Shown here piece by piece: positions 11,753-40,968 of a DNA stretch of 64,000 nt. Below the pieces are notes generated by a model. That model did no database searches and was not told where the DNA came from. It saw only the letters and a list, made by a program, of their open reading frames with translations. The DNA comes from Thermus aquaticus (GTDB lineage Bacteria > Deinococcota > Deinococci > Deinococcales > Thermaceae). A program made the translations under genes and the position numbers. The stretch covers positions 1,279,766 to 1,343,765 of the forward strand of contig NZ_LHCI01000106.1 in the NCBI RefSeq assembly GCF_001280255.1, in the 5' to 3' direction. Numbering within the stretch: position 1 is the first letter of the stretch; every line of letters begins with the position of its first letter.

Positions 11753-12526
11753 TGCCCCCTGGCCCGAGTAGCGCTTAAGGCCAAGCCAAAAGAGGAGGCG
11801 GGCCAGGAGGAGGAAGGCCACACCCCAGAGGAGCATGATCCAAAGCCCCGGGAAAAGGGCCACCTCCTGCCCCGCCAGGAGGGCGGCGGGCAGGTAGACC
11901 AGGTAGGGGAAGGGGGTGAGGAGGGCGAGCTCCCTTAGGGGCTCGGGGAAGACCTCGAGGGGGGCGATGGTCCCCGAGAGGAAGAGGTAGAGAAGGAAGA
12001 AGACCTCCTCCACGCTGGTGGCCCGTTCCGTCCAGAAGGTGAGCATGGCCGTGGTGTACTGCATGGTGTAGCGGAGCAGGAAGGCCAGGAGGGTGAGGAG
12101 AAGGCCCAAAAGGAAGGGGCCTGGTTCGGGGGTAAAGCGGGCCTCGGGGAAGAGGTAGAAGAAGAGGAGGGTGAGGAGGACCACGAAGGGGAGCCTGGCC
12201 AGCCTCTCGGCCACGTGGGCCGCCAGGTGGTCCAAGAAGGGGTCTAGGGGGCGGAGGAGGCGGAAGGAGAGCCGGCCCTCCACCACGTCCCGCTCAAACT
12301 CCCACACCACCCAGACCACCGTGGCCTGGCGCACCAGGAAGACCATGAGGAAGTAGCGGGCGAACTCCCCCGAGGAGAGGGGGGAGCCCCCGCCCCGGGC
12401 GGCCTCGGTCCAGACCCCCATAAGGATGAGGGGAAGAAGCCCGGCCAAGGCCCAGAGAAAGAGCTCCGCCCGGTACTCCAGCATGTAGGCCAGGTAGACG
12501 GCGAGAAGGGTCTTGGCCTTCCTCAT
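11750..12526 (-). CDS. ABC-2 type exporter permease (first of two)
   Basis: 258 aa with about six hydrophobic segments, and the RPLDPFLDHLAAHVAERL and LFLSGTIAPLEVFPEPLRELALLTPFPYLVYLPAA segments typical of the ABC-2/DUF990 permease family. Its ATG overlaps the stop of the ATPase gene by 4 bp. With the divergent permease at 13545 it would form a heterodimeric exporter driven by the ATPase at 12523. Substrate unknown. Confidence 0.85.
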   Translation of the reverse strand: MRKAKTLLAVYLAYMLEYRAELFLWALAGLLPLILMGVWTEAARGGGSPLSSGEFARYFLMVFLVRQATVVWVVWEFERDVVEGRLSFRLLRPLDPFLDHLAAHVAERLARLPFVVLLTLLFFYLFPEARFTPEPGPFLLGLLLTLLAFLLRYTMQYTTAMLTFWTERATSVEEVFFLLYLFLSGTIAPLEVFPEPLRELALLTPFPYLVYLPAALLAGQEVALFPGLWIMLLWGVAFLLLARLLFWLGLKRYSGQGA

Positions 12527-29782: not shown

Positions 29783-30897
29783 AGCCTCAGGACCTCCTTC
29801 CGGTAACGCTGGGCCAGGGCCGGGCTTTGCAGGACCAGGAGGTTTTCGTTGTTCACCTGCCAGGCCCGGGCGGAGAAGTTGTAGCTTCCGGTCACCACCC
29901 GCTCCCCGTCCAGGACCAGGACCTTGTGGTGCAGGGTGTAGGGGTTCCCGTCCTGGCGCACGGGGATGCCCGCCCTCCTCAGGTCCTCCTCCCGGCTGTC
30001 CCGGAGGGTGCGGGTCTCCAGAAGGACCTTGACCTCCACCCCTCGGCGGTGGGCGTCCTCGAGGGCCTTCACCACCTCCCGGTCCGTGAGGACGAAGGCG
30101 GCCACCAGGATCTCCCGCTTGGCCTCCCGGGCGGCCTGAAGCAGGGCTTCCCGGGCCGCCTTCCCCCCCTTGGGGCTGAAGTAGGCGGTGCCTTCCACCG
30201 GAGGGTCTTCCAGGCGGAAGGCCACGGGCTCGCCAAGGCCCTCCTTATTCCCCCCGAAGAGGGCCTTGAACTCCCGGGCGTAGCCCCGGGCCAGGGTGGG
30301 GGAGGGGAGGAGGAGGCTGTTTTCGTCATTGCGGGCGAAGGCGTTCCAGGTCATGTTGGTGCTCCCGGTCCAGACCGCCTTTTCGTCGGCCACCAGGAAC
30401 TTGTGGTGCATGAAGCCTTCCCGCTCGTCAAAGCAGACGGGAATCCCGGCGATCTCCTCGCAGTCTATGGAGGTGGGCCGGACCCTTTCCCTTAGGGCCG
30501 TCTGGGGCACCCTGGGGGGCTCCTGGGTCTGGCCCAGGCTCGCCGCCACCAGGTAGCGGCGGAAGTCCTGGCGGAAGTCGCTTTCCCCGTAGATCTCCAC
30601 CTTCACGCCGCGGGCCTTGGCCTCAAGGAGCCCCTTGGCGATCTCCAGGTCCCTGAACTCGTAAAAGGCCCCATAGAGGCTTTCCCGGGCGCCCGCCATG
30701 AGGGCGAGGAGACGGGCCTTGGCCTGGGGCCCGTCTTGGGGCATGAAGTAGACCTCCGCCTGCCCCGTTTCCGGGAGGGCTGAGGGAGAGGGGCCAGGGC
30801 GGAGCTCCTGGAAAAGCCAGAGGAGGAGAAGGACCAGGAGGATCAGGTAGCCGGGAAGCCCGGCGATCTCCTTACCCTTGCGCCTTCTAGTACCCAT
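29758..30897 (-). CDS. Secreted or membrane-anchored phospholipase D-family protein
   Basis: 379 aa. An N-terminal hydrophobic segment ([17 protein letters not shown]) anchors or exports it. Two complete HKD motifs: [18 protein letters not shown] and [18 protein letters not shown], so both halves of the active site are present in one chain. Substrate could be a phospholipid or nucleic acid (Nuc-type); sequence alone does not decide. Its start overlaps the deoC end by 11 bp. Confidence 0.88.
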
Positions 30898-31546
30898 GCC
30901 CCTCTTCCCCCCGCACCAGGGCCACGCCGCTGGAGGTGCCCAGGCGGGTGGCCCCCATCTCCAGGAACCGCAGGGCGGTCTTCCGGTCCCGGATGCCCCC
31001 GGCCGCCTTGACCTGGGCCCGGCCCCGGGCCACCTCCAGGAGGAGGGCCACGTCCTCCGGGCTCGCCCCCCTGGGGCCGAAGCCGGTGGAGGTTTTGAGG
31101 AAGTCCGCCCCGCCCCTGATGGCGGCCTCGGCCAGGTTGCGCACCTCCTCCGGGGTGAAGTAGCCCGTTTCCAGAATCACCTTGAGGACCGCCCTTGGCA
31201 CCGCCTGCCGCACGGCGCGGACCTCCTCTTCCACGTAGGCCACCTTCCCCGCCTTGGCCTGGCCCAGGTGGAGGACCATGTCCACCTCGTCGGCGCCCCG
31301 GGCGAAGGCCAGGGCGGCCTCGAGGGCCTTCACCTCCTTCTCCTGGTAGCCCAAGGGGAAGCCCACCACGGTCACCAGGCGGAAGGGGGCGTGGGGGAAG
31401 GCCTGGCGCACCAGGGCCACGTAGGAGGGCGGGATGCAGAGGCCGTAAAAGCCCCATTCCAGAGCTTCCTCCGCCGCCTTCAGGACCTCTTCCGGCGTGG
31501 CGGTGGGCTTCAGCAGGGTGTGGTCAATGTGGGCGGCCAGGTCCAT
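30887..31546 (-). CDS. deoC: Deoxyribose-phosphate aldolase
   Basis: Cleaves 2-deoxyribose-5-phosphate to acetaldehyde and glyceraldehyde-3-phosphate. 219 aa, TIM barrel with Schiff-base Lys151 in FLKTSTGFG and the helper Lys180 in QVKAAGGIRD. IDHTLLKP at the start is the family's N-terminal signature. First gene of a seven-gene minus-strand operon; a -10 TATGAT (minus strand, 31561 to 31556) lies 9 bp before the ATG. Confidence 0.95.
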   Translation of the reverse strand: MDLAAHIDHTLLKPTATPEEVLKAAEEALEWGFYGLCIPPSYVALVRQAFPHAPFRLVTVVGFPLGYQEKEVKALEAALAFARGADEVDMVLHLGQAKAGKVAYVEEEVRAVRQAVPRAVLKVILETGYFTPEEVRNLAEAAIRGGADFLKTSTGFGPRGASPEDVALLLEVARGRAQVKAAGGIRDRKTALRFLEMGATRLGTSSGVALVRGEEGHGY

Positions 31547-31597
31547 ACCCTGTCCATCATAGAGGGGTTTTCTTTGAGAAGGCTAGGAGACTTTGTG

Positions 31598-31700
31598 CCA
31601 AGTACCCCACCGCGGCTTTTGCCGCGGTGGGGGCCCCAGAAAAGCCCTTAGCCCCGAGTTGGGCACCCCATGTTGCGAAACCAAAGGGCGGGCATTTAGG
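31598..31700 (+). repeat. Palindromic element, family 1, copy A (full length)
   Basis: About 103 bp: AAGTACCCCACCGCGGC-TTTT-GCCGCGGTGGGG hairpin (31600-31628), then GGCCCCAGAAAAGCCCTT and a tail ending GGGCATTTAGG. Copy B at 33375-33482 is an inverted near-identical copy. The ends resemble each other as inverted repeats (TAAGTACCCC / CTAAATGCCC), giving it the form of a miniature inverted-repeat element. The right end supplies the TAGGAT that looks like the ychF -10 box. Confidence 0.8.
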
Positions 31701-31731
31701 ATAAGGCGAAGCCCCGGACGGGGCTTTTTTT
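31697..31731 (+). promoter_or_regulatory. ychF leader: -10 box followed by a terminator-like hairpin
   Basis: -10 TAGGAT (31697-31702) at the edge of repeat copy A would start transcription near 31709. The next bases form a terminator: AAGCCCC (31709-31715) / GGGGCTT (31720-31726), loop GGAC, and T7 at 31725-31731. The ychF ATG follows at 31741 after GAGGT. There is no plus-strand gene upstream for it to terminate, so it looks like an early attenuator of ychF. Confidence 0.55.
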
Positions 31732-31740
31732 GAGGTCAGC

Positions 31741-32847
31741 ATGCTCGCCGTAGGCATCGTCGGTCTACCCAACGTCGGCAAGTCCACCCTCTTCAACGCC
31801 CTCACCCGGGCGGGGGTCCTGGCGGCCAACTACCCCTTCGCCACCATTGACAAGAACGTGGGGGTGGTGGCCCTGGAGGACCCGCGCCTTTACGCCCTGC
31901 AGAAGACCTTCGCCAGAGGGGAGCGCCTGCCGCCCGTCATCCCCACCCACGTGGAGTTCGTGGACATCGCCGGCCTGGTGAAGGGGGCCCACAAGGGGGA
32001 GGGGCTTGGCAACCAGTTTCTGGCCCACATCCGGGAGGTGGCGGCCATCGCCCACGTGGTGCGCTGCTTTCCCGACCCCAACGTGGTCCACGTCATGGGC
32101 CGGGTGGACCCCCTGGAGGACGTGGAGGTGGTGGAGACGGAGCTCCTCCTGGCCGACCTGGCCACCTGGGAAAGGCGGCTAGGGCGCTTGAGGAAGGAGG
32201 CCCGGGCCAACCGGGAGCTCGCCCCCCTTCTGGAGGAGGCCGAGGGCCTTCACGCCCACCTCACCGAGGGCAGGCCCGCCCGCACCTTTCCCCTCTCCGA
32301 AGAGGGCCGCCGCCTCCTCAAGGAGACCCCCCTCCTCACCGCCAAGCCGGTCATCTACGTGGCCAACGTCTCGGAGGAGGACCTGCCCGATGGCGCGGGT
32401 AACCCCCACGTGGCCGCCCTGAGGGCCCGGGCGGAGCGGGAGGGGGCCGAGGTGGTGGTGGTCTCCGCCAAGCTGGAGGCGGAGCTGGCCGAGCTTTCTG
32501 AGGAGGAGGCCAGGGAGCTCCTCGCCGCCTACGGCCTAAAGGAAAGCGGCCTAAAGCGCCTGGCCCGGGCGGGTTACCGGGCTTTGGGCCTCGTCACCTT
32601 CTTCACGGCGGGGGAGAAGGAGGTGCGGGCCTGGACGGTGCGCCGGGGGACCAAGGCCAAGGAGGCCGCCGGGGAGATCCACTCCGACATGGAGCGGGGC
32701 TTCATCCGGGCCGAGGTCATCCCCTGGGACAGGCTGGTGGAGGCCGGGGGGTGGGCCAGGGCCAAGGAGCGGGGCTGGGTGCGCCTCGAGGGCAAGGACT
32801 ACGAGGTGCAGGACGGGGATGTCCTTTACATCCTCTTCAGCGTTTGA
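31741..32847 (+). CDS. ychF: Ribosome-binding ATPase YchF (OLA1 family)
   Basis: 368 aa. P-loop GLPNVGKSTLFNAL at residues 8-21, G3 region VDIAGLVKGAHKGEGLGNQFL, and NVSEED in place of the GTPase NKxD motif, which gives the family its ATP preference; C-terminal TGS domain (VRAWTVRRGTKAKEAAGEIHSDMERGF). Binds ribosomes and acts in stress and translation control. Flanked by an inverted pair of family 1 repeats and preceded by a putative attenuator. Confidence 0.95.
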   Translation: MLAVGIVGLPNVGKSTLFNALTRAGVLAANYPFATIDKNVGVVALEDPRLYALQKTFARGERLPPVIPTHVEFVDIAGLVKGAHKGEGLGNQFLAHIREVAAIAHVVRCFPDPNVVHVMGRVDPLEDVEVVETELLLADLATWERRLGRLRKEARANRELAPLLEEAEGLHAHLTEGRPARTFPLSEEGRRLLKETPLLTAKPVIYVANVSEEDLPDGAGNPHVAALRARAEREGAEVVVVSAKLEAELAELSEEEARELLAAYGLKESGLKRLARAGYRALGLVTFFTAGEKEVRAWTVRRGTKAKEAAGEIHSDMERGFIRAEVIPWDRLVEAGGWARAKERGWVRLEGKDYEVQDGDVLYILFSV

Positions 32848-32872
32848 CGGCGGGGTTCCTTTGCCCTAAAAT
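32844..32872 (+). promoter_or_regulatory. tRNA-Gln promoter
   Basis: -35 TTGACG (32844-32849) overlapping the ychF stop codon, 17-bp spacer, -10 TAAAAT (32867-32872). The predicted transcription start is about 7 bp before the tRNA 5' end, leaving a minimal leader for RNase P. Confidence 0.7.
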
Positions 32873-32884
32873 TGCCTTTGGCGC

Positions 32885-32958
32885 TGGGGCGTCGTCTAAT
32901 GGCAGGACAGCGGACTTTGGATCCGCCGGTCGTGGTTCGAGTCCACGCGCCCCAGCCA
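32885..32958 (+). tRNA. tRNA-Gln (UUG)
   Basis: Cloverleaf by eye: acceptor TGGGGCG (32885-32891) pairs with CGCCCCA (32948-32954), discriminator G, encoded CCA at 32956-32958. Anticodon stem GCGGA (32910-32914) / TCCGC (32922-32926), loop CTTTGGA with anticodon TTG at 32917-32919. T arm CGTGG-TTCGAGT-CCACG. A T6 run at 32963-32968 follows and may end the transcript. Confidence 0.95.
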
Positions 32959-33004
32959 CGCCTTTTTTCATGCGATTTTTACAGAGGTCCGATAAACTCA
33001 GCCC

Positions 33005-33379
33005 GTGGCGGCGGAGTATCCGGGCCTGCTTTTATTAAGCCGCAACGAGGCCTTGAGGGCCTACGTGGACCTGCTCCTCTCGGAGCGGGGGATCCCGGTG
33101 CGCCACTTTGATAATGCCAAGGAGGGGCTCTTCTGGCTGGTGGACAACACTCCCCGCCACATCCTTTTGGACGAGGACCTGGACCTGGACCCCTTTTCCG
33201 TCGCCAACCGGATCCGCCACGTGAAGCGCTTAAAGTTCGTTTCCATCGCGGTTCTCATCCCCCCTTCCGAGAAGCTCCGCACCACGGCGGAGGTGGTGCG
33301 GGTGAAGGCCATAGAAAAACCCTTAACCCGGGAGAAGCTCTTCCGCTTCCTGGATCTCCCTCTAGGAAGCGCCTCCTAA
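33005..33379 (+). CDS. Single-domain receiver-like protein with degenerate active site
   Basis: 124 aa, size and strand order of a CheY-like receiver. Asp56 or Asp58 (HILLDEDL) is in the phosphoacceptor position and Lys105 in IEKPLTREKLF is the conserved Lys. The acidic pair that normally binds Mg2+ after beta-1 is replaced by Ser-Arg-Asn-Glu (LLLLSRNEA), so phosphorylation may be lost. No output domain. GTG at 33005 follows a -10 TAAACT (32993-32998) by 6 bp. The stop TAA lies in the end of a family 1 repeat. Confidence 0.7.
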   Translation: MAAEYPGLLLLSRNEALRAYVDLLLSERGIPVRHFDNAKEGLFWLVDNTPRHILLDEDLDLDPFSVANRIRHVKRLKFVSIAVLIPPSEKLRTTAEVVRVKAIEKPLTREKLFRFLDLPLGSAS

Positions 33380-33482
33380 GTGCCCGCACGTTGGTTTTGC
33401 GACATAGGGTGCCCAAGCCGGGGCTGTGGAAGGGCTTTTCTGGGGCCCCCACCGCGGCAAAGGCCGCGGTGGGGTACTTAAG
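33375..33482 (-). repeat. Palindromic element, family 1, copy B (full length, inverted to copy A)
   Basis: Starts CCTAAGTGCCCGC and ends GCCGCGGTGGGGTACTTAAG; its reverse complement matches copy A (31598-31700) over almost the whole length with scattered changes and a short indel. The TAA at 33377-33379 inside the terminal CTAAGTGCCC is the stop codon of the receiver gene. Confidence 0.8.
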
Positions 33483-33500
33483 TGGCCACCCATCGCTATT

Positions 33501-33555
33501 TAGGCTCCGGTACGTCCTTTTGGGGCCGTGGCAAGAGCCGCGGCGGGGTACTTAA
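33501..33555 (-). repeat. Palindromic element, family 1, copy C (decayed)
   Basis: A weaker copy in the same orientation as B: TTTTGGGGCC, then GTGGCAAGAGCCGCGGCGGGGTACTTAAG. The hairpin is imperfect (CCGTGGC / GCCGCGG) and the long tail is reduced. It immediately precedes the PBP1A promoter and, with copy B, fills the whole gap before 33583. Confidence 0.6.
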
Positions 33556-33582
33556 GGGTGGGCCTCGAGTAAACTAGGGGCC

Positions 33583-35724
33583 GTGCGCTGGCTTCGGCTT
33601 TTCGCCCTTTTCCTCTTGGCGCTTTTTCTGGGGGCGGGGCTGGCCCTCGGCTACGTGGCCTACGCCTTCACCCGGGACCTCCCCGACCTTGCCCAGCTGG
33701 ACCGCCTTCGCCTGACCGCCACCTCCACCCTCTACGCCCGGGACGGCTCTCTCCTCGCCCAGATCGCCAGCGTGGAGGAGGGGCGGGCCATCCACCGGGG
33801 CCTGGTGCGGCTTTCCCAGGTCTCCCCGGCGGCGGTGGCCGCCATCGTCTTCTCCGAGGACCGCCGCTACTTCCAGCACTACGGGGTGGACTTCCTCCGC
33901 CTCTTCGGAGCCCTTTACGCCGTGCTGAAGGGGGACCTCCAGGGGGGGAGCACCATCTCCACCCAGGTCCTCAAGAACACGCTCCTCAAGGACCTGGCCC
34001 AGGAGAGAACCCTGGAAAGGAAGATCAAGGAGTGGATTCTGGCCCTAGAGCTGGAGCGGCGCTACACCAAGGAGGAGATCCTGGAGATGTACCTGAACGT
34101 GATTCCCTGGGGAGGGAACGCGGTGGGGATCGCCGGGGCGGCGGAGGCCTACTTCGGCAAGGACCCGGGGGGGCTGAGCCTGGCCGAGGGGCTCTACCTG
34201 GCCTCCCTGATCCCCGCTCCCAACGCCCGCTACGGCGACCTCAAGGGGGTCAGGGAACGCATGCGCCGCCTTCTGAACGAGATGGTGGCCGAGGGCTGGG
34301 TGAGCCGGGAGGTGGCCGAGGCCGCCTGGCGCGAACCCCTGGAGCCCAGCGGCTGGCGGGCCCGCTACGACGAAGAGGGGAACCTCCTGGAGGCCAGGCT
34401 CGTTGACCCCGAGGCCCGGCTGGTCCGCTCCATCAGCCCCAAAATGGCCTCCCACTTCGTCCTGGAGGTGCGGCGCTTCTTGGAGGCCCGCTTCGGCAAG
34501 GAGAAGGTTTATGGGGAGGGGGGGCTCAAGGTCTACACCACCCTGGACCCCGCCATGCAGCGGGCGGCGGAGGCCGCCGCCCAGAGGGCCCGCCTGCCCG
34601 AGGGGGCCGAGCTGGCCCTGGTGGGCCTGGACCCGGAGACGGGGGAGGTCCTGGCCCTGGTGGGGGGCATCCGGCGGGAGAACGACCAGTACAACCGGGC
34701 CACCCGGGCCCTGAGGAACCCGGGGAGCGCCGTGAAGCCCTTCGTCTACGCCACCGCCCTCGAGGCGGGCTGGACCCAGGCCACCCTGGTGCCGGACCGC
34801 CCCTTGGAGTTCCCCGACCCCAGCCAGCCGGGGGGCGTTTGGCGGCCCAAGAACTTCTCCGGCACCTTCCTAAACAGGAGCATCACCCTGCGCTACGCCC
34901 TGGACCTCTCCTTGAACCTGCCCGCCATCTACACCGCCCACCAGGTAGGGGTGGAAAAGGTCGCCGAAAAGCTCGCCCAGGCGGGCTTCGCCGTGCGCTA
35001 CCCCACCCTGGCCATCGCCATCGGGGGGGCTTCCATCACCCCCATAGACCTGGCCGCCGCCTACGCCGCCTTCGTGAACGGGGGGTACCGGGTGGCCCCC
35101 ATCTTTGTGGCCCGGGTGGAGGACGCCAGGGGGGAGGTCCTCTACCGGGCCACCCCCGAGCGCCGCCTCCTCTTTGACCCCCTGGTGGCCTACCAAGGCT
35201 GGGACCTCCTGAAGGGCTACGTCTACGACCTGGGGGAGAAGGGCCTGGCCAAAGGGGCCCGGATTCCCGGGCGGGTGGTGGGGGGCAAGACGGGCACCAC
35301 CAACGAGGCCCGGGACCTGTGGTTCGCCGGGGTGACCCGGGGGCTTTCGGCCGTGGTCTGGGTGGGGCGGGACGACAACCGCCCCCTGCGCATGGGGGGG
35401 CGGGAGCCCTCCAGCTCGGTGGTGAACCCCCCCATCTGGCGGGACTTCGTGGCCGAGGCCCTGCGGGGCCGGCCCGGGCAGGATTTCCCCCCGCCCCCGG
35501 GCCTGGTCCGGGCCCGGGTGGACCTCCTCTCCGGCTACCCCTCGGCGGGGGGGGGGGAGATGGTCTTCCCCGAGGGCAAGGTCCCTGCGCCGCCGTCTCC
35601 CCCGAAGCCCACCCTGCCGGCGGAGGGGCCAGGGGCCCGGGAAACCCCACCTACGGGCCTGCAAAGCCCGGCTCCCGAGGAGAGCCCGGCCCCCCAGGCA
35701 CCGCCTTCGGAGGAGGCGCCATGA
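33583..35724 (+). CDS. Penicillin-binding protein 1A (bifunctional class A PBP)
   Basis: Polymerises and crosslinks peptidoglycan. 713 aa: one N-terminal membrane helix (residues ~4-28), GT51 transglycosylase with catalytic Glu92 in FSEDRRYFQHYGVD and GGSTISTQ, then transpeptidase with Ser382 and Lys385 in GSAVKPF, SLN in LDLSLNLPA, and Lys569-Thr-Gly in GGKTGTTNEARD. The last ~70 residues are Pro/Ala/Glu-rich and disordered. GTG at 33583 is 7 bp after a -10 TAAACT (33570-33575), so it is probably leaderless. Coupled to the methyltransferase gene by ATGA. Confidence 0.94.
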   Translation: MRWLRLFALFLLALFLGAGLALGYVAYAFTRDLPDLAQLDRLRLTATSTLYARDGSLLAQIASVEEGRAIHRGLVRLSQVSPAAVAAIVFSEDRRYFQHYGVDFLRLFGALYAVLKGDLQGGSTISTQVLKNTLLKDLAQERTLERKIKEWILALELERRYTKEEILEMYLNVIPWGGNAVGIAGAAEAYFGKDPGGLSLAEGLYLASLIPAPNARYGDLKGVRERMRRLLNEMVAEGWVSREVAEAAWREPLEPSGWRARYDEEGNLLEARLVDPEARLVRSISPKMASHFVLEVRRFLEARFGKEKVYGEGGLKVYTTLDPAMQRAAEAAAQRARLPEGAELALVGLDPETGEVLALVGGIRRENDQYNRATRALRNPGSAVKPFVYATALEAGWTQATLVPDRPLEFPDPSQPGGVWRPKNFSGTFLNRSITLRYALDLSLNLPAIYTAHQVGVEKVAEKLAQAGFAVRYPTLAIAIGGASITPIDLAAAYAAFVNGGYRVAPIFVARVEDARGEVLYRATPERRLLFDPLVAYQGWDLLKGYVYDLGEKGLAKGARIPGRVVGGKTGTTNEARDLWFAGVTRGLSAVVWVGRDDNRPLRMGGREPSSSVVNPPIWRDFVAEALRGRPGQDFPPPPGLVRARVDLLSGYPSAGGGEMVFPEGKVPAPPSPPKPTLPAEGPGARETPPTGLQSPAPEESPAPQAPPSEEAP

Positions 35725-36455
35725 GGGAGGCCTTGTCCCGGGTGCGGGTGGTCCTGGTGGAGCCCCAGGAGCCCATGAACGTGGGGGCGGTGGCCCGGGC
35801 CATGCGCAACTTCGGCCTGGCCCGGCTTTACCTGGTCAACCCCGCCCCCCGGGTGGGGCCCCCCTGGGCCAGGGAGGCCTACTGGCTGGCGGTCCACGCC
35901 GAGGAGATCCTGGACCGGGCTGTGGCCGTGGACAGCCTGATGGAGGCCCTAGCGGACGTAGAGCTGGTGGTAGCCACCACGGGCAGGCCCCGGAAGCTCT
36001 ACCCGGCCCCCATGGTCCCCGCCTGGGAGGTGCCGGCCCGCGTCCTCTCCGTGGAGGGGGAGGTGGCCTTGGTCTTCGGCCGGGAGACCTTTGGCCTCAC
36101 CAACGAGGAGCTGGCCCTGGCCCACGTGATCGGCACCATCCCCACGGCCCCGGAGCAGCCCTCCTTGAACCTGGCCCAGGCGGTGGTGGTCTTCGCCTAC
36201 GAGCTCTTTAAGGCGGTGGGGGAGGGGAGGTTTCCCCGGGAGGAGCTGGCCCAGGTGGCGGCCCTCGAGGCCTTCTTTGAGGACCTGGGCCGCTATGTGC
36301 TGGAGATCGGCTTCACCGACCAGAACCGCTTTCCCCACGCTATGCGCCGCCTGAGGCGCATCTTCCACAAGGCCAGGCTCACCCCGGGGGAGGTGCAGAT
36401 GCTCAGGGGCCTCCTGCACCAGAGCCGCTACCAGATGAGGAAGAAGGATGGCTAG
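35721..36455 (+). CDS. SPOUT-family RNA 2'-O-methyltransferase, TrmJ-like
   Basis: 244 aa. SpoU/TrmH motifs in order: motif 1 EPQEPMNVGAVARAMRNFG (residues 14-32), motif 2 LVFGRETFGLTNEEL, motif 3 IPTAPEQPSLNLAQAVVVFAYE. Single-domain start without an L30e domain and a helical C-terminal extension (RLRRIFHKARLTPGEVQMLRGLLHQ) fit TrmJ, which methylates position 32 of tRNAs. ATG at 35721 overlaps the PBP stop; the upstream longer frame is a shadow. Target RNA is inferred. Confidence 0.85.
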   Translation: MREALSRVRVVLVEPQEPMNVGAVARAMRNFGLARLYLVNPAPRVGPPWAREAYWLAVHAEEILDRAVAVDSLMEALADVELVVATTGRPRKLYPAPMVPAWEVPARVLSVEGEVALVFGRETFGLTNEELALAHVIGTIPTAPEQPSLNLAQAVVVFAYELFKAVGEGRFPREELAQVAALEAFFEDLGRYVLEIGFTDQNRFPHAMRRLRRIFHKARLTPGEVQMLRGLLHQSRYQMRKKDG

Positions 36456-37995
36456 CGAGAACCTGATCCGCTTGGTCCGGCTGGCCCAGCGCCTCCTGCC
36501 CCCCATCATCGCCCTGGTGGTGGTGGCCTTTGAGCTGGCCCTCCTCCCCTACCGCCACCAGGACTTCACCCTTTGGCTCCGGCTGGGCTTTTACGGCTTG
36601 GTGGGGCCTTTGGTCACCTACGCCGTCCTGGAGTGGATCGCCCAGGAGGTTCTGGAGAGGGCCAGGGCGGAAAGGGCCCTGGAGGAGGCCAACCGCAGGC
36701 TTCTCGCCGCGGGGCGGGTCTTCCGCGAGGCCCTGAAGAGCGAGAACCTGGAGGAGGCGGTCCAGCGGGTGGCCCGGGTCCTGGAGGAGAGCCTGGGCCT
36801 TCCCGTGGGCCTCGAGGTGGAGGGGGTGCGGGCCGGGTGCGAGGGGGAGGGCCTCAGGGTGGAGCTTCCCGGGCTTAAGGGGTACCTGGAGGTCTGCGCC
36901 CAGGGGGCGGACCGGGCCTTCCTGGAGGTTCTGGCCCACGAGGTGGCCGGGGCCCTGCAGGCGGTGGTGGCCCGAAGCCGGGACCTCCTCACCCTCTACG
37001 AGGTGGACCAGGCCCTGAAGGCCGAGGCCAACCTAGACCGGCTTCTGGAGGGGCTTTTGGAGCGCATCCGCGCCTGGGCCGAGGCCGAGGGGGCGGGCGT
37101 CCTCCTCCTGGACGAGGAGGGCTTCTTGGTGCCCCGGGTGGTGCGGAACCTGGACCTGCCAGGCCACCCCTTTCTGCCGGAGGGGCCCTGGAAGGGGGCT
37201 TTGGAGGGGCCCGTCTTCGTGGCCCCCGAGACCCTGGCCCTGCCCCTCAAGGCTCGGGAGCCCGTGGGGGTATTGGTGGTCAAGGGGAAGGGGCTTTCCC
37301 GCCGCATCCCCTTCCTCTCCTTCCTGGCCTCCCAGGTGGCCCTGGCGGTGCGGAACGCCCAGGCCTACCTAAGGGCCGAGGAGCTGGCCATCAACGAGGA
37401 GCGCACCCGCATCGCCCGGGAGATCCACGACGGCATCGCCCAGAGCCTGGCCTTTATGGCCCTGAAGCTGGACCTGGCCGAGCGCCTCCTGGACAAGGAC
37501 CGGGAGGCGGCCTTGAAGGCGTTGGCCGAGGTGAAGGACACCCTGAGGGCCCAGATCCGGGAGGTGCGGCGGAGCATCTTCGCCCTTAGGCCCATTGACC
37601 TGGAGCGCTACGGCTTTCTGGAGTCCGTGCGCCGCTACGCCCAGGCCTTCGCCGAGCAGGCGGGCTTCCGGGTCCAGATCTCCACGCCCGAAAGGGTGGG
37701 GCTTTCCCAGGCCAGCGAGCTGGTCCTCTTCCGGGTGTTGCAGGAGGCCCTCACCAACGCCGCCAAGCACGCCAGGCCCACCCGGGTGGACGTGGTCCTG
37801 GAGCCTTTAGGGGAGCGGGGGGCGAGGCTAGTGGTGCGGGACAACGGCCGGGGCTTCGCCGAGCCCAGCGCCCAGGGGCTTGGGGGCTTCGGCCTCACCC
37901 AGATGCGGGAGCGGGTGGAGGCCCGGGGCGGGCGCTTTTTCGTGCGCTCGGAGCTGGGCAAGGGCACGGAGGTGGTGGCCGAACTCCCTTACTAA
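36448..37995 (+). CDS. Sensor histidine kinase (HisKA_3 / NarX-LiaS type) with GAF domain
   Basis: 515 aa: two N-terminal membrane helices (residues ~10-60), a coiled linker, a GAF-like domain (~190-310), the DHp helix with phospho-His327 in RIAREIHDGIAQSLAF, and HATPase_c with N box LTNAAKHARP and G boxes VRDNGRGFAEP and GGFGLTQMRERVEARGG. This class normally pairs with a NarL/FixJ regulator, but none is adjacent. Starts inside the end of the methyltransferase gene with AGGAAG upstream. Its stop TAA is in the end of repeat copy D. Confidence 0.9.
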   Translation: MASENLIRLVRLAQRLLPPIIALVVVAFELALLPYRHQDFTLWLRLGFYGLVGPLVTYAVLEWIAQEVLERARAERALEEANRRLLAAGRVFREALKSENLEEAVQRVARVLEESLGLPVGLEVEGVRAGCEGEGLRVELPGLKGYLEVCAQGADRAFLEVLAHEVAGALQAVVARSRDLLTLYEVDQALKAEANLDRLLEGLLERIRAWAEAEGAGVLLLDEEGFLVPRVVRNLDLPGHPFLPEGPWKGALEGPVFVAPETLALPLKAREPVGVLVVKGKGLSRRIPFLSFLASQVALAVRNAQAYLRAEELAINEERTRIAREIHDGIAQSLAFMALKLDLAERLLDKDREAALKALAEVKDTLRAQIREVRRSIFALRPIDLERYGFLESVRRYAQAFAEQAGFRVQISTPERVGLSQASELVLFRVLQEALTNAAKHARPTRVDVVLEPLGERGARLVVRDNGRGFAEPSAQGLGGFGLTQMRERVEARGGRFFVRSELGKGTEVVAELPY

Positions 37996-38033
37996 GCACC
38001 CCACCGCGGCTTTTGCCGCGGTGGGGTACTTAG
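37992..38033. repeat. Palindromic element, family 1, copy D (short, near-perfect palindrome)
   Basis: CTAAGCACCCCACCGCGGC (37992-38010), TTTT, GCCGCGGTGGGGTACTTAG (38015-38033): 19-bp arms with one mismatch. It shows that the minimal form of the family is both end sequences joined by the hairpin. The first TAA is the stop codon of the histidine kinase, and the -10 box of the next gene starts 5 bp after its other end. Confidence 0.85.
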
Positions 38034-38051
38034 GTGGGTATCATAGGGGGC

Positions 38052-38537
38052 ATGGAGCGCCCGGTGCGCGTGCTCTTCGTCTGCCTGGGCAACATCTGCC
38101 GAAGCCCCCTGGCGGAGGGGGCTTTCCGCAAGCTTTTGCGGGAGAGAGGCCTCGAGGACCGCTTTGAGGTGGACTCGGCAGGCACCGGGGCCTGGCACGC
38201 CGGGGAGCCCATGGACCCCCGGGCCAGGCGGGTTCTGGAGGAGGAGGGGGCCTACTTTTCCCACGTGGCCCGGCAGATGACCCGGGAGGACGCCCTCCGC
38301 TTTGACCACATCCTGGTCATGGACCGGGAGAACCTCCTCGAGGTCCACCGCCGCTTTCCCGAGGCCAGGGGCAAGGCCCGGCTTCTCCTGGACTACCTGG
38401 GCGGGGGCGAGGTGCCGGACCCCTACTATGGGGACCTCCAGGACTGCCGGGAGGTTTACTGGATGGTGGAGGCCGCCTGCCGGGCCTTCTTGGACCAATA
38501 TGGACCCCCTGTCGCTGATGGAGAAGGCGGGGCTTGA
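38052..38537 (+). CDS. Low-molecular-weight protein-tyrosine-phosphatase family (likely ribulosamine-phosphate phosphatase)
   Basis: 161 aa. The CX5R active-site loop is VCLGNICRSP at residues ~12-21 and the general-acid Asp is in VPDPYYGD near residue 122. In bacteria, members next to fructosamine-kinase homologues (LMW-PTP-A type) dephosphorylate free ribulose/erythrulose-phosphate amines in protein deglycation; here the kinase gene overlaps by 38 bp, supporting that role. A -10 TATCAT (38039-38044) is 7 bp before ATG. Ordinary phosphotyrosine phosphatase is the alternative. Confidence 0.9.
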   Translation: MERPVRVLFVCLGNICRSPLAEGAFRKLLRERGLEDRFEVDSAGTGAWHAGEPMDPRARRVLEEEGAYFSHVARQMTREDALRFDHILVMDRENLLEVHRRFPEARGKARLLLDYLGGGEVPDPYYGDLQDCREVYWMVEAACRAFLDQYGPPVADGEGGA

Positions 38538-39288
38538 GGCCGAGGGCCCGCCCACCCCCCTCCACGGGGGTGATATGGCCCTGGTCTACCGCCTGGGGCC
38601 TTATGTGGTGAAGACGGCGCGCCACGCCCCGCCGGGCCTCTTCCAGGCCGAGGCCAGGGGCCTGAAGGCCCTCGAGGCGCGGGGCGCGAGGGTGCCCCGG
38701 GTCTACTGGTGGGGGGAAGAGGGGATCGTCCTGGAGTACCTGTCCCCGGGCCCGGAGGACTGGGAGGGCCTGGCCCGGATGCTGGCCCGCCTTCACCGAA
38801 GCCGAGAGGAGGCCTACTGGGCCGAGGCGGGGTACCTGGGCACCTTTCCCCTGCCCGAAAGGCGGGGGGATGCGTGGACGGAGTTCTTCTTCCTGAGGTG
38901 CGTGGAGCCTCTCCTGAAGGCCACCTGGGGGCGGCTTGGGGAGCTGGGCCCCAAGGTGGAGGCCCTTTACCTTAAACCCCTCCCCACGGAAGGGCCCGCC
39001 CCCCTCCACGGGGACCTGTGGCGGGGCAACGTCCACTTCGCCCAGGGCGGCCCGGCCCTTCTGGACCCCTCCTTCTTCGTGGGGGAGCGGGGCGTGGACC
39101 TGGCCATGATGCGCCTTTTTGGGGGCTTTCCCCAGGCCTTCTGGCGGGCCTACCGGGAGGCCTACCCCATCCCCGAGGAGGTGGAAAGGGTCCTTCCCCG
39201 CTACCAGGTCTACTACCTCCTGGCCCACGTCCACTTCTTTGGGGAAGGGTATCTGGGAGCGCTATGGAAGGCGATTTCCGCCTCCTAG
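38500..39288 (+). CDS. Fructosamine/ribulosamine 3-kinase family protein
   Basis: 262 aa, aminoglycoside-phosphotransferase fold. Nucleotide-loop region GGDMALVYRLGPYVVKTARH, catalytic motif PLHGDLWRGNVHF and the metal-binding ALLDPSFFVGERGVDLAMM. Bacterial FN3K homologues phosphorylate ribulosamines/erythrulosamines on proteins so that the glycation adduct is lost. ATG at 38500 lies within the LMW-PTP gene; a frame extending to 38302 is only overlap. Its end overlaps the DUF4388 gene by 25 bp. Confidence 0.9.
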   Translation: MDPLSLMEKAGLEAEGPPTPLHGGDMALVYRLGPYVVKTARHAPPGLFQAEARGLKALEARGARVPRVYWWGEEGIVLEYLSPGPEDWEGLARMLARLHRSREEAYWAEAGYLGTFPLPERRGDAWTEFFFLRCVEPLLKATWGRLGELGPKVEALYLKPLPTEGPAPLHGDLWRGNVHFAQGGPALLDPSFFVGERGVDLAMMRLFGGFPQAFWRAYREAYPIPEEVERVLPRYQVYYLLAHVHFFGEGYLGALWKAISAS

Positions 39289-40007
39289 GTCCCATTGACC
39301 TCCTCCAGCTTCTGGCCCAGGGGGGGAAGACCGGGGCCTTTCTGGTGGAGGGGGGCGGGGTGTACCTGGAGGGGGGCAGGCCGGTCCACGCCTTTTTGGG
39401 AAAGAAGGCGGGCAAGGAGGCCCTTTTGGGGATCCTGGCCCTAAAGGAGGGGAGGTTCCGCTTCCTTTTGGGGGAGCGGGCCCCCACGACCTCCCTCGAG
39501 GCCCCCCTCGAGGCCTACCTCCTGGAGGCCCTCCGCCTCCTGGACGAGGGGGTGGAGGTGGGCCCCTTTGACCTGGTGCGCCCCTCCTCCCGGGCCTATG
39601 GGGCCACCCTGGAAGGGGAGGACCAGGCCCTCCTTTTGGCCCTGGGGGCGGGAAAGAGCCCCCTGGACCTGGCGGCGGCCACCGGGCTTCCCCTGGAGGC
39701 GGTTCTGAAGCGCCTGGGGCACCTGGCCCGGCTCCGCCTCCTGGAGGTCCACCCCCGGGTGCCCCACACCGCCCGCCTGCGGGTGGCCTTGGGGGGACGG
39801 GGGGCCCAGGTGGACCGCCTCCTCCTCACCGCCTGGCGGTCCCACTACGGGGGGTTTGCCCGGGTGCGGGTGCGGGGCAAGGGAGAGGGGAGCCTGGCCG
39901 TGGAGGGGGTGGAGGGGCTTGGCGTGGAGCTCCGCCTGGCCCCGGAGCACCTCCTCTTCCTGGGCCTCAAGGTGGGGGAGGAGGTCCTGGTCTGGCCCGA
40001 GGTCTAA
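39264..40007 (+). CDS. DUF4388-domain protein
   Basis: 247 aa. The N terminus, FRLLGPIDLLQLLAQGGKTGAFLVEGGGVYLEGGRPVHAFLGKKAGKEALLGILALKEGRF-like block (residues 4-67), matches the DUF4388 pattern found in many thermophile and myxobacterial signalling proteins. A middle part (GAGKSPLDLAAATGLPLEAVLKRLGHLARLRLL) resembles a winged-helix. The C-terminal ~70 residues are beta-rich. It may regulate the overlapping deglycation genes, but that is inference. Its stop TAA is in the end of repeat copy E. Confidence 0.7.
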   Translation: MEGDFRLLGPIDLLQLLAQGGKTGAFLVEGGGVYLEGGRPVHAFLGKKAGKEALLGILALKEGRFRFLLGERAPTTSLEAPLEAYLLEALRLLDEGVEVGPFDLVRPSSRAYGATLEGEDQALLLALGAGKSPLDLAAATGLPLEAVLKRLGHLARLRLLEVHPRVPHTARLRVALGGRGAQVDRLLLTAWRSHYGGFARVRVRGKGEGSLAVEGVEGLGVELRLAPEHLLFLGLKVGEEVLVWPEV

Positions 40008-40090
40008 GTGCCCCACCGCGGCGAAATCCGCGGTGGGGGCCCCGGAAGAGCCTTTAGCCCTGGGCTTTGGCACGCCCTTTTGGGGCCCCA
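40004..40090 (+). repeat. Palindromic element, family 1, copy E
   Basis: CTAAGTGCCCCACCGCGG-CGAAAT-CCGCGGTGGGGGCCCC then GGAAGAGCCTTTAGCCCTGGGCTTTGGCACGCCC, parallel to copy A for about 65 bp before diverging into TTTTGGGGCCCC. The TAA at 40005-40007 is the stop codon of the DUF4388 gene. Confidence 0.75.
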
Positions 40091-40122
40091 AAGAAGCGCC
40101 GAGGCCGGTTATACTGGGGCCC

Positions 40123-40968
40123 GTGCCGGAAGCCCTGGTGGCCCTGGAGTCCGCCGTTCTCACCCACGGCCTGCCCTACCCGCTGAACCTGAAGACGGCC
40201 CTGGCCCTGGAAGAGGCGGTGCGGGCCGAGGGGGCCATCCCCAGAACCATCGCCCTGGTGCGGGGCGAGGTGCGGGTGGGCCTTACCCCGGAGGAGATGG
40301 AGGCCTTGGCCAGGGGCGGGGCCGATAAGGCCAGCCTCTGGAACCTGGCGGCCCTTCTGGCCCGCGGCCTTAGCGCCGGGACCACGGTGGCGGCCACGGC
40401 CCACCTGGCCCACCGCCACGGCATCGCCGTCTTCGCCACGGGGGGCATCGGCGGGGTCCACCCCGAGCCCTACGACGAGAGCGCCGACCTGGTGGCCCTT
40501 TCCCGCACCCCCATCCTGGTGGTGGCCTCGGGGCCCAAGGCCATCCTGGACCTGGAGGCCACCCTGGAGCGGCTGGAGACCCTGGGGGTGGCCGTGGTGG
40601 GCTACCGCACGGACCGCCTCCCCGCCTTCTTTTCCCCCTCCTCCCCCTACCCCGTGCCCGCCGTGGTGGAGACCCCCCTCGAGGCCGCCCTGGTCCTCAA
40701 GCGCGCCCGGGAGCTGGGCCTGGGAGGGGTCCTCCTGGCCAACCCCGTCTCCCAGGGGCTTCCCTATGAGGAGGTGGCCCGGATGGTGGAGGAGGCGGGC
40801 CGCCAGGCGGCCCGGGAGGGGGTCCACGGCAAGGCCCTCACCCCCTACCTCCTGCGGAAGCTCTCCGAGCTTTCCCAGGGGGAGACGGACCGGGTCAACG
40901 AGAGGCTCCTCCTGGAGAACGCCCGGGTGGCGGCCCAGGTGGCCCTGGCCTGGGCCGGGCTAGAATAG
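40123..40968 (+). CDS. psuG: Pseudouridine-5'-phosphate glycosidase
   Basis: Splits pseudouridine 5'-phosphate into uracil and ribose-5-phosphate (family also called IndA-like). 281 aa. Characteristic blocks: ALESAVLTHGLPYPLN at the start, GGADKASLWNLAALLARGLSAGTTVAATAHLAHRHGI with the catalytic Lys, FATGGIGGVH, and ASGPKAILDLEATLERLETLGV. GTG at 40123 is 7 bp after the -10 TATACT (40110-40115). The partner kinase psuK is not adjacent. Confidence 0.9.
   Translation: MPEALVALESAVLTHGLPYPLNLKTALALEEAVRAEGAIPRTIALVRGEVRVGLTPEEMEALARGGADKASLWNLAALLARGLSAGTTVAATAHLAHRHGIAVFATGGIGGVHPEPYDESADLVALSRTPILVVASGPKAILDLEATLERLETLGVAVVGYRTDRLPAFFSPSSPYPVPAVVETPLEAALVLKRARELGLGGVLLANPVSQGLPYEEVARMVEEAGRQAAREGVHGKALTPYLLRKLSELSQGETDRVNERLLLENARVAAQVALAWAGLE

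Follow-up and report, generated by a model that had tools for sequence, protein, structure and literature searches.

Short hairpin elements of the IS630 MITE type at stop codons in Thermus aquaticus

The Correia (NEMIS) elements of Neisseria target TA. They are small hairpin MITEs, about 107 and 155 bp long, one form of which fuses open frames with genes, and as far as the source describes them they do not restore stops (PMC2229807). RUP, the repeat unit of pneumococcus, is a 107-bp MITE of IS630-Spn1 with about 100 copies, a TA target, and proposed mobilization in trans (PMC3049150, PMC2229807); the relevant parts of these papers place it in intergenic DNA or in or near IS elements and describe no stop niche. 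In 36 genes of Streptococcus pneumoniae, the stop codon belongs to a BOX repeat, and no truncation is evident (PMC3049150). Finally, IS870 of Agrobacterium needs CTAG to generate a stop codon, according to the title of Fournier 1993 as cited in PMC6471742.

The repeat family analyzed here is a RUP-like IS630 MITE; the kind is already known, and its niche is unusual and is quantified below. It is short and multicopy, with terminal inverted repeats (TIRs), a TA duplication, and ends that match an IS630 transposon of the same hosts. The family has its size class, IS630-like ends, TA target, and proposed trans-mobilization in common with RUP, but it is GC-rich, carries a subterminal hairpin, and lies mostly inside stops. 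Repeat-encoded stops are found in both the Thermus family and BOX, whereas BOX is modular (boxA-B-C), has other ends, is linked to ISSpn2 and, in what is available of its description, is not presented as rebuilding a target stop, which sets it apart. The ends of Correia/NEMIS also differ from those of the Thermus family. To our knowledge, IS870 is not an IS630 element; its target completes the stop of the element itself, whereas the Thermus element additionally rebuilds the stop of the host gene. We found no description of the Thermus family in the open-access literature searched, a scope outside which subscription papers and ISfinder lay.

Copies in the window and the repeat family

The window is a 64,000-nucleotide stretch of Thermus aquaticus DNA in which an earlier note had listed five copies of the element. 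All five are present, with corrected extents that include both TA dinucleotides:

31599-31698, plus strand: copy A, full-length MITE of subfamily 1 whose left TA has mutated to CA
33005-33379, plus strand: receiver-domain gene, ending in copy B
33377-33480, minus strand: copy B, full-length subfamily-1 MITE, 104 bp including both TAs
33479-33554, minus strand: copy C, subfamily-2 MITE with R end AGTGGCCACC, full copy
36448-37995, plus strand: histidine kinase gene, ending in copy D
37993-38032, plus strand: copy D, nearly perfect 40-bp palindrome (36-bp palindromic element between two TAs)
37993-37994: left TA of the copy D target duplication, from the empty-site comparison
38031-38032: right TA of the copy D target duplication; the next base is G, giving TAG as at the empty site
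39264-40007, plus strand: DUF4388 gene, ending in copy E
40005-40080, plus strand: copy E, left part of a MITE, end approximate

Copy A is not at a stop; it is flanked by divergent genes, one at 30887-31546 (minus) and YchF at 31741-32847 (plus). Three genes have an in-frame TAA stop at an element: the receiver gene at 33377-33379, the histidine kinase gene at 37993-37995, and the DUF4388 gene at 40005-40007. The first is rebuilt by the right end of copy B, the second consists of the left TA and first A of copy D, and the third is the TAA of copy E. Copies B and C have the TA at 33479-33480 in common, a tandem insertion, and copy C is longer than the earlier note had it. Copy D is nothing more than two inverted ends flanking a hairpin. 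A recognizable right end was not found for copy E and is missing in many other copies, and many shortened copies keep the hairpin.

We took the stretches around the copies of the family (about 407 kb of known sequence), in which 85 left ends with enough flank could be read. At least 84 distinct copies were analyzed in the T. aquaticus genome. They measure about 36 to 108 bp, about 104 bp at full length with both TAs, and carry no transposase gene. Their ends follow YTA-AGTRCCC...GGGYACT-TAR, with terminal inverted repeats on both sides, and the consensus is Y-TA-AGTACCCCACCGCGGC-TTTT-GCCGCGGTGGGGGCCCCAGAAAAGCCCTTCCACAGCCCCGACTTGGGCACCCCATGTTGCGAAACCAAAGTGCGGGCACT-TA-R. Subfamily 2, to which copy C belongs, reads CCCCGCCGTGGC-NNNN-GCCACGGCGGGG and differs from subfamily 1 in its right half. 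With the 103-bp copy A as query, 40 near-full-length copies at 85-100% identity were found in the same genome, and an 18-base left-end pattern allowing up to 3 mismatches has 114 matches in the genome versus 5 for a reversed control. These 114 matches are unevenly spread over the strands of the whole chromosome, 73 forward versus 41 reverse (p 0.0035). Among 43 full-length copies, both flanking dinucleotides are TA in 36, and the most frequent targets are CTAG (17), TTAG (12), and CTAA (5). A TG duplication at a TGA stop was seen in one case only (606411+, TG-AGTACC...GCACT-TG); the remaining TGA stops look like TAA mutated to TGA.

Other repeats adjoin the family. An FYDSL-stop reading before some copies was considered as a transposase C terminus and rejected: it marks the end (TIR GAGGCTGTCGTAAAAG) of a different repeat or IS, which often abuts family copies at a common TA (on contig C106, for example, at 11785, 77772, 101940, 168187, 238441, 1050013, and 1348686). 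A second hairpin family (TAATACCACCCCATGCTGGC..GCCAGCATGGGGGCCCC) also lies at TA (C106, for example 236533, 412996, and 669300), in some cases in stops or adjoining the first family. A rule that every TA-target repeat here begins with a purine and restores stops was not supported: the second hairpin family, TA-ATACCACC, is at stops in only 2 of 11 ends and its apparent other end reads TA-T. Further, a common sequence, TGTATCTTGCCCTCTGAGGGAGG..., breaks into four copies and the end of the relic IS630 at almost the same internal position (ATGTTGCA; C106: 117989-, 215112+, 239405+, 703209+, and 1130283+; loci L094, L098, L099, L140, and L141). At L094, TGTATCTTGCCCTCTGAGGGAGG leads into an open reading frame starting MLCAGIDISKPHL, with an interior of N in the assembly. 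This start is like that of IS110-family transposases, and the MITE appears to have served as the target of an IS110-type element.

Stop codons with and without the element

The frame reading into each end was called with a codon model trained on long open frames. The left end forms the stop of the incoming gene in 46 of 85 cases (binomial p about 4e-21 against 1/3), with TAA or TGA at the first base in 42 and TAA in TAAAGTACC in 4, and an incoming gene at another phase was seen at only one left end (359039). Right ends behave alike, with 23 at stops. Altogether, one or both ends fall exactly in a stop codon in 55 of the 84 distinct copies, 12 of the 84 have each of their ends in the stop of one of two converging genes, and 34 of the copies at stops lie in convergent-gene intervals. 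The observation is confirmed and extends far beyond three genes; many genes in this genome end in TAAGTRCCC because the family inserts at stops and rebuilds them.

We compared syntenic stretches from 20 other Thermus genomes at the histidine kinase and DUF4388 loci. Orthologues of the histidine kinase end at the same codon, which in many species is TAG or TGA with the element absent, and DUF4388 orthologues show the same pattern. The copy D junction reads TAC-TA-[AGCACC...GTACT]-TA-GGTGGGTATC in T. aquaticus versus TAC-TA-GGCGGGTATC in the empty site of genome G018; the latter, TAC-TAG-G, indicates a TA duplication. For 16 further copies, the two flanks were joined and compared with G018 and a second genome, G012. 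The joined flanks of 460552+ align with G018 along their full 202 bases, junction included, at 92.6%, and those of 200121- match both genomes through the junction. The target duplication for which the earlier note proposed to look is observed, as TA, at species-level empty sites. At nearly all other sites that could be read, the orthologue stops at, or no more than one codon from, the same place. Similarly, in named plasmid sequences, an ABC-transporter gene of T. thermophilus SNM7-6 has the TAA of the element as its stop, and its HB8 orthologue has TAG at the same codon.

The earlier note had the element supplying the stop codons of three genes. This is literally true, in that TAA comes from the element, but no new stop has been gained: the same codon, usually as TAG, closes those orthologues that lack the element, which is the result that the note itself had named as speaking against its reading. 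The comparison of orthologues therefore indicates that the element does not create the stop and that an existing one has been occupied and rebuilt as TAA.

Different hairpin elements are present at the same stop in different Thermus species (TGAGTACCCC, TAGGTACCCC, TGATCCCC, TGAATACCCC, and TGATACCACCCC, in the histidine kinase and DUF4388 orthologues, loci L181-L200). Several of the same stops carry another hairpin element, or the same family in the opposite orientation, in related species, and the T. aquaticus stops at 606411, 33998, 639904, and 767931 have different elements in relatives. For the histidine kinase and DUF4388 orthologues, this suggests recurrent insertion at favored stops.

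ISTth6 and the accumulation of copies at stops

We searched the genus Thermus for the DDE_3 transposase domain. The search led to a 1060-bp transposon that starts YTA-AGTGCCAA and finishes GGGYACT-TAR, its ends also being given as YTA-AGTGCC...GGGYACT-TAR. It has two overlapping frames, with Pfam HTH domains followed by Pfam DDE_3, and both open reading frames at locus L168 match the IS630 family model (NCBIfam transpos_IS630). The transposon is annotated as ISTth6 in T. thermophilus plasmids, and copies also occur in genomes G026, G025, G002, and G017; the annotated HB8 ISTth6 transposase CDS is frameshifted. In a survey of the insertion sequences of Thermus, ISTth6 appears as an IS630 element with 2-bp repeats, and the parts of it that were searched make no mention of a derived MITE (PMC6352166). 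The full-length transposon with the same ends for which the earlier note proposed to look is found, in other Thermus, and together with the TA duplication at empty sites it agrees with the note's view of a non-autonomous mobile element with inverted-repeat ends.

ISTth6 and the MITE have the terminal AGTRCC(C), the YTAR target, and the TA duplication in common, and we propose ISTth6 as the parent. TCNCAACATGG occurs both in the right end of the MITE and in the left end of the IS (p 0.006); outside the terminal 8-9 bp the likeness is short, and the left part of the hairpin has no clear match to the IS. The ISTth6 transposase has no stop of its own. In 9 of 11 copies inspected, its frame reaches the codon ACT (GGG-CAC-T or equivalent) and then TAR, made of the duplicated TA and the target purine, so that the target supplies the stop (ACT-TAR), as with IS870. 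In ISTth6 copies at CTAC, the transposase frame continues into flanking DNA (loci among L153, L154, L168, L180, L226, and L294-L300). In HB8 pTT27, a full ISTth6 forms the stops of the antitoxin gene and the SEL1 gene on its two sides.

In T. aquaticus itself, a left- and right-end search of the sampled parts of the genome gave no autonomous copy, and the DDE_3 domain has no match in the genome. A DNA search found only decayed ISTth6 relatives, at C106:238457-239353 and 1762055-1762253 (67-71% identity), and an intact ISTth6 transposase was not found in this assembly, where scaffold N runs could hide copies. Because the genome appears to have only transposase relics, the MITE copies here are probably fossils. 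Full-length ISTth6 copies are 90-99% identical to each other and look younger.

The ends of the element, its duplication of TA, its occupancy of stops, the empty sites in orthologues, and a parent-like transposon were all observed directly. We consider it probable that the family consists of MITEs mobilized in trans by an ISTth6-type IS630 transposase, that they insert at YTAR and rebuild stops, and that they pile up there by survival. The transposase would insert at YTAR, best at CTAG, and duplicate the central TA. As each element end starts AGTRCCC, reading into either end would give TA plus A, that is, TAA. A copy that enters a stop codon, TAG or TAA, at its TA would leave the protein unchanged, and insertion into a CTAG common to two convergent genes would rebuild both stops. 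Copies would then accumulate at stops, which should form a large tolerated target set, and the main harmless one for an element that needs YTAR, because about 93% of the window is coding and YTAR sites inside genes would be harmful targets. We infer that selective loss is the main cause of the pile-up.

Stops are overrepresented even among non-coding targets. They make up 118 of 373 non-coding YTAR sites, stop or intergenic (32%), versus 55 of 84 copies (p 2e-8), a large excess of stops over the remaining non-coding targets. With gene context matched, 34 of 35 copies between convergent pairs are at stops versus 65% expected (p 1e-4), as are 21 of 36 between codirectional pairs versus 37% expected (p 0.026). 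Within the 20 final codons of genes there are 87 YTAR sites, which hold about 2 insertions, compared with 55 at the 118 stops, a deficit that reflects either very strong selection or a preference for stops. Full-length ISTth6, 1060 bp long and with a frameshifted transposase, is less often at stops than the MITE, at 3 of 12 sites (p 0.011), with some copies in genes. All of these occupancy statistics are based on gene calls from a simple codon model and on sequence sampled around copies, and few IS sites were available. Some enrichment at stops remains after the controls. The earlier note had the element "selected or targeted" to gene 3' ends; the excess stands, but most of it is explained by the YTAR target, the rebuilding of stops, and the loss of harmful insertions, and the low ISTth6 count points the same way.

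A further suggestion, which we put forward tentatively and judge rather doubtful, is that the transposon family is adapted to stops. The A that follows TA in its ends and the preference for CTAG, a sequence that overlapping convergent stops have in common, would have been maintained since insertion at stops is neutral, in addition to a bias toward gene ends beyond sequence. If true, such a safe-harbor strategy would suit a genome with almost no intergenic space.

Insertions could also be actively steered to stops beyond the YTAR requirement, by the transposition machinery or by the state of DNA or RNA at gene ends. Such steering would fit the excess that persists with target and gene context matched, the nearly empty YTAR sites of the last 20 codons, and the presence of different elements at the same stops in related species. 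However, only 3 of 12 full-length ISTth6 sites are at stops, some are in genes, and selection alone predicts a bias in the same direction; we think steering unlikely. Survival is favored over aiming because full-length ISTth6 is less often at stops, and we attribute the pile-up mainly to an enzyme that needs YTAR and to old insertions that stay where they are harmless, with perhaps a residual preference for stops.

The hairpin and the significance of the family

The hairpin is strong, with a predicted energy of -36.3 kcal/mol in copy D (z -9.3), and all 12 stem pairs are kept in 54 of 85 copies. What distinguishes the stems of the two subfamilies is a pair of compensating exchanges, A-T/G-C and C-G/T-A. 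These features, together with the shortened copies that retain the hairpin and the 34 stop-located copies between convergent genes, are what would be expected if the element had been domesticated as a 3' end signal, its copies kept since the hairpin ends or protects the mRNA. By the usual description of intrinsic terminators, a GC-rich hairpin plus a U-tract, the hairpin is present but the U-tract is absent: no T-run follows it, and a terminator scan gave no match at any window copy. Full-length copies sit at stops in both orientations without clear preference (about 19 by the left end only, 11 by the right end only), the paired changes could represent just two founder events, and orthologues lack the element. 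An Rfam search of 31000-40500 brought only a tRNA to the cutoff, with one match far below it in copy E. The hairpin may end or protect mRNA, in line with the capping proposed in the earlier note, but retention of the copies for that role seems improbable to us.

Short, palindromic, extragenic, and present in high copy, the family also recalls REP-like elements moved by an IS200/IS605-type (TnpA-REP) enzyme that recognizes the hairpin. REP elements have neither a TIR pair nor a duplication, however, whereas this family has two inverted ends, a TA that is duplicated relative to empty sites, and an IS630 transposon that matches it, which makes that origin very unlikely. That ordinary GC-rich hairpins, which form readily in GC-rich sequence, merely lie 3' of genes whose downstream DNA happens to start TAAG is negligible as an explanation given at least 84 copies with defined ends, 40 of them aligned nearly full length at 85-100% identity.

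Matches to the MITE family at E ≤ 0.001 occur in 21 of the 27 Thermus genomes searched, and outside the genus only 2 of 23 Thermaceae gave matches, which were weak. Exact hairpin matches among 84,980 species are limited to Thermus, including T. arciformis, T. composti, and T. parvatiensis, and one Thermaceae MAG.

The analysis names the likely mobilizer of an abundant Thermus repeat. By splitting and rebuilding a stop in one step, on both strands if genes converge, the element would be able to spread with little damage in a gene-packed genome. It also carries a warning, that a stop encoded by a repeat is not in itself a sign of a gene end that is truncated or has newly evolved.
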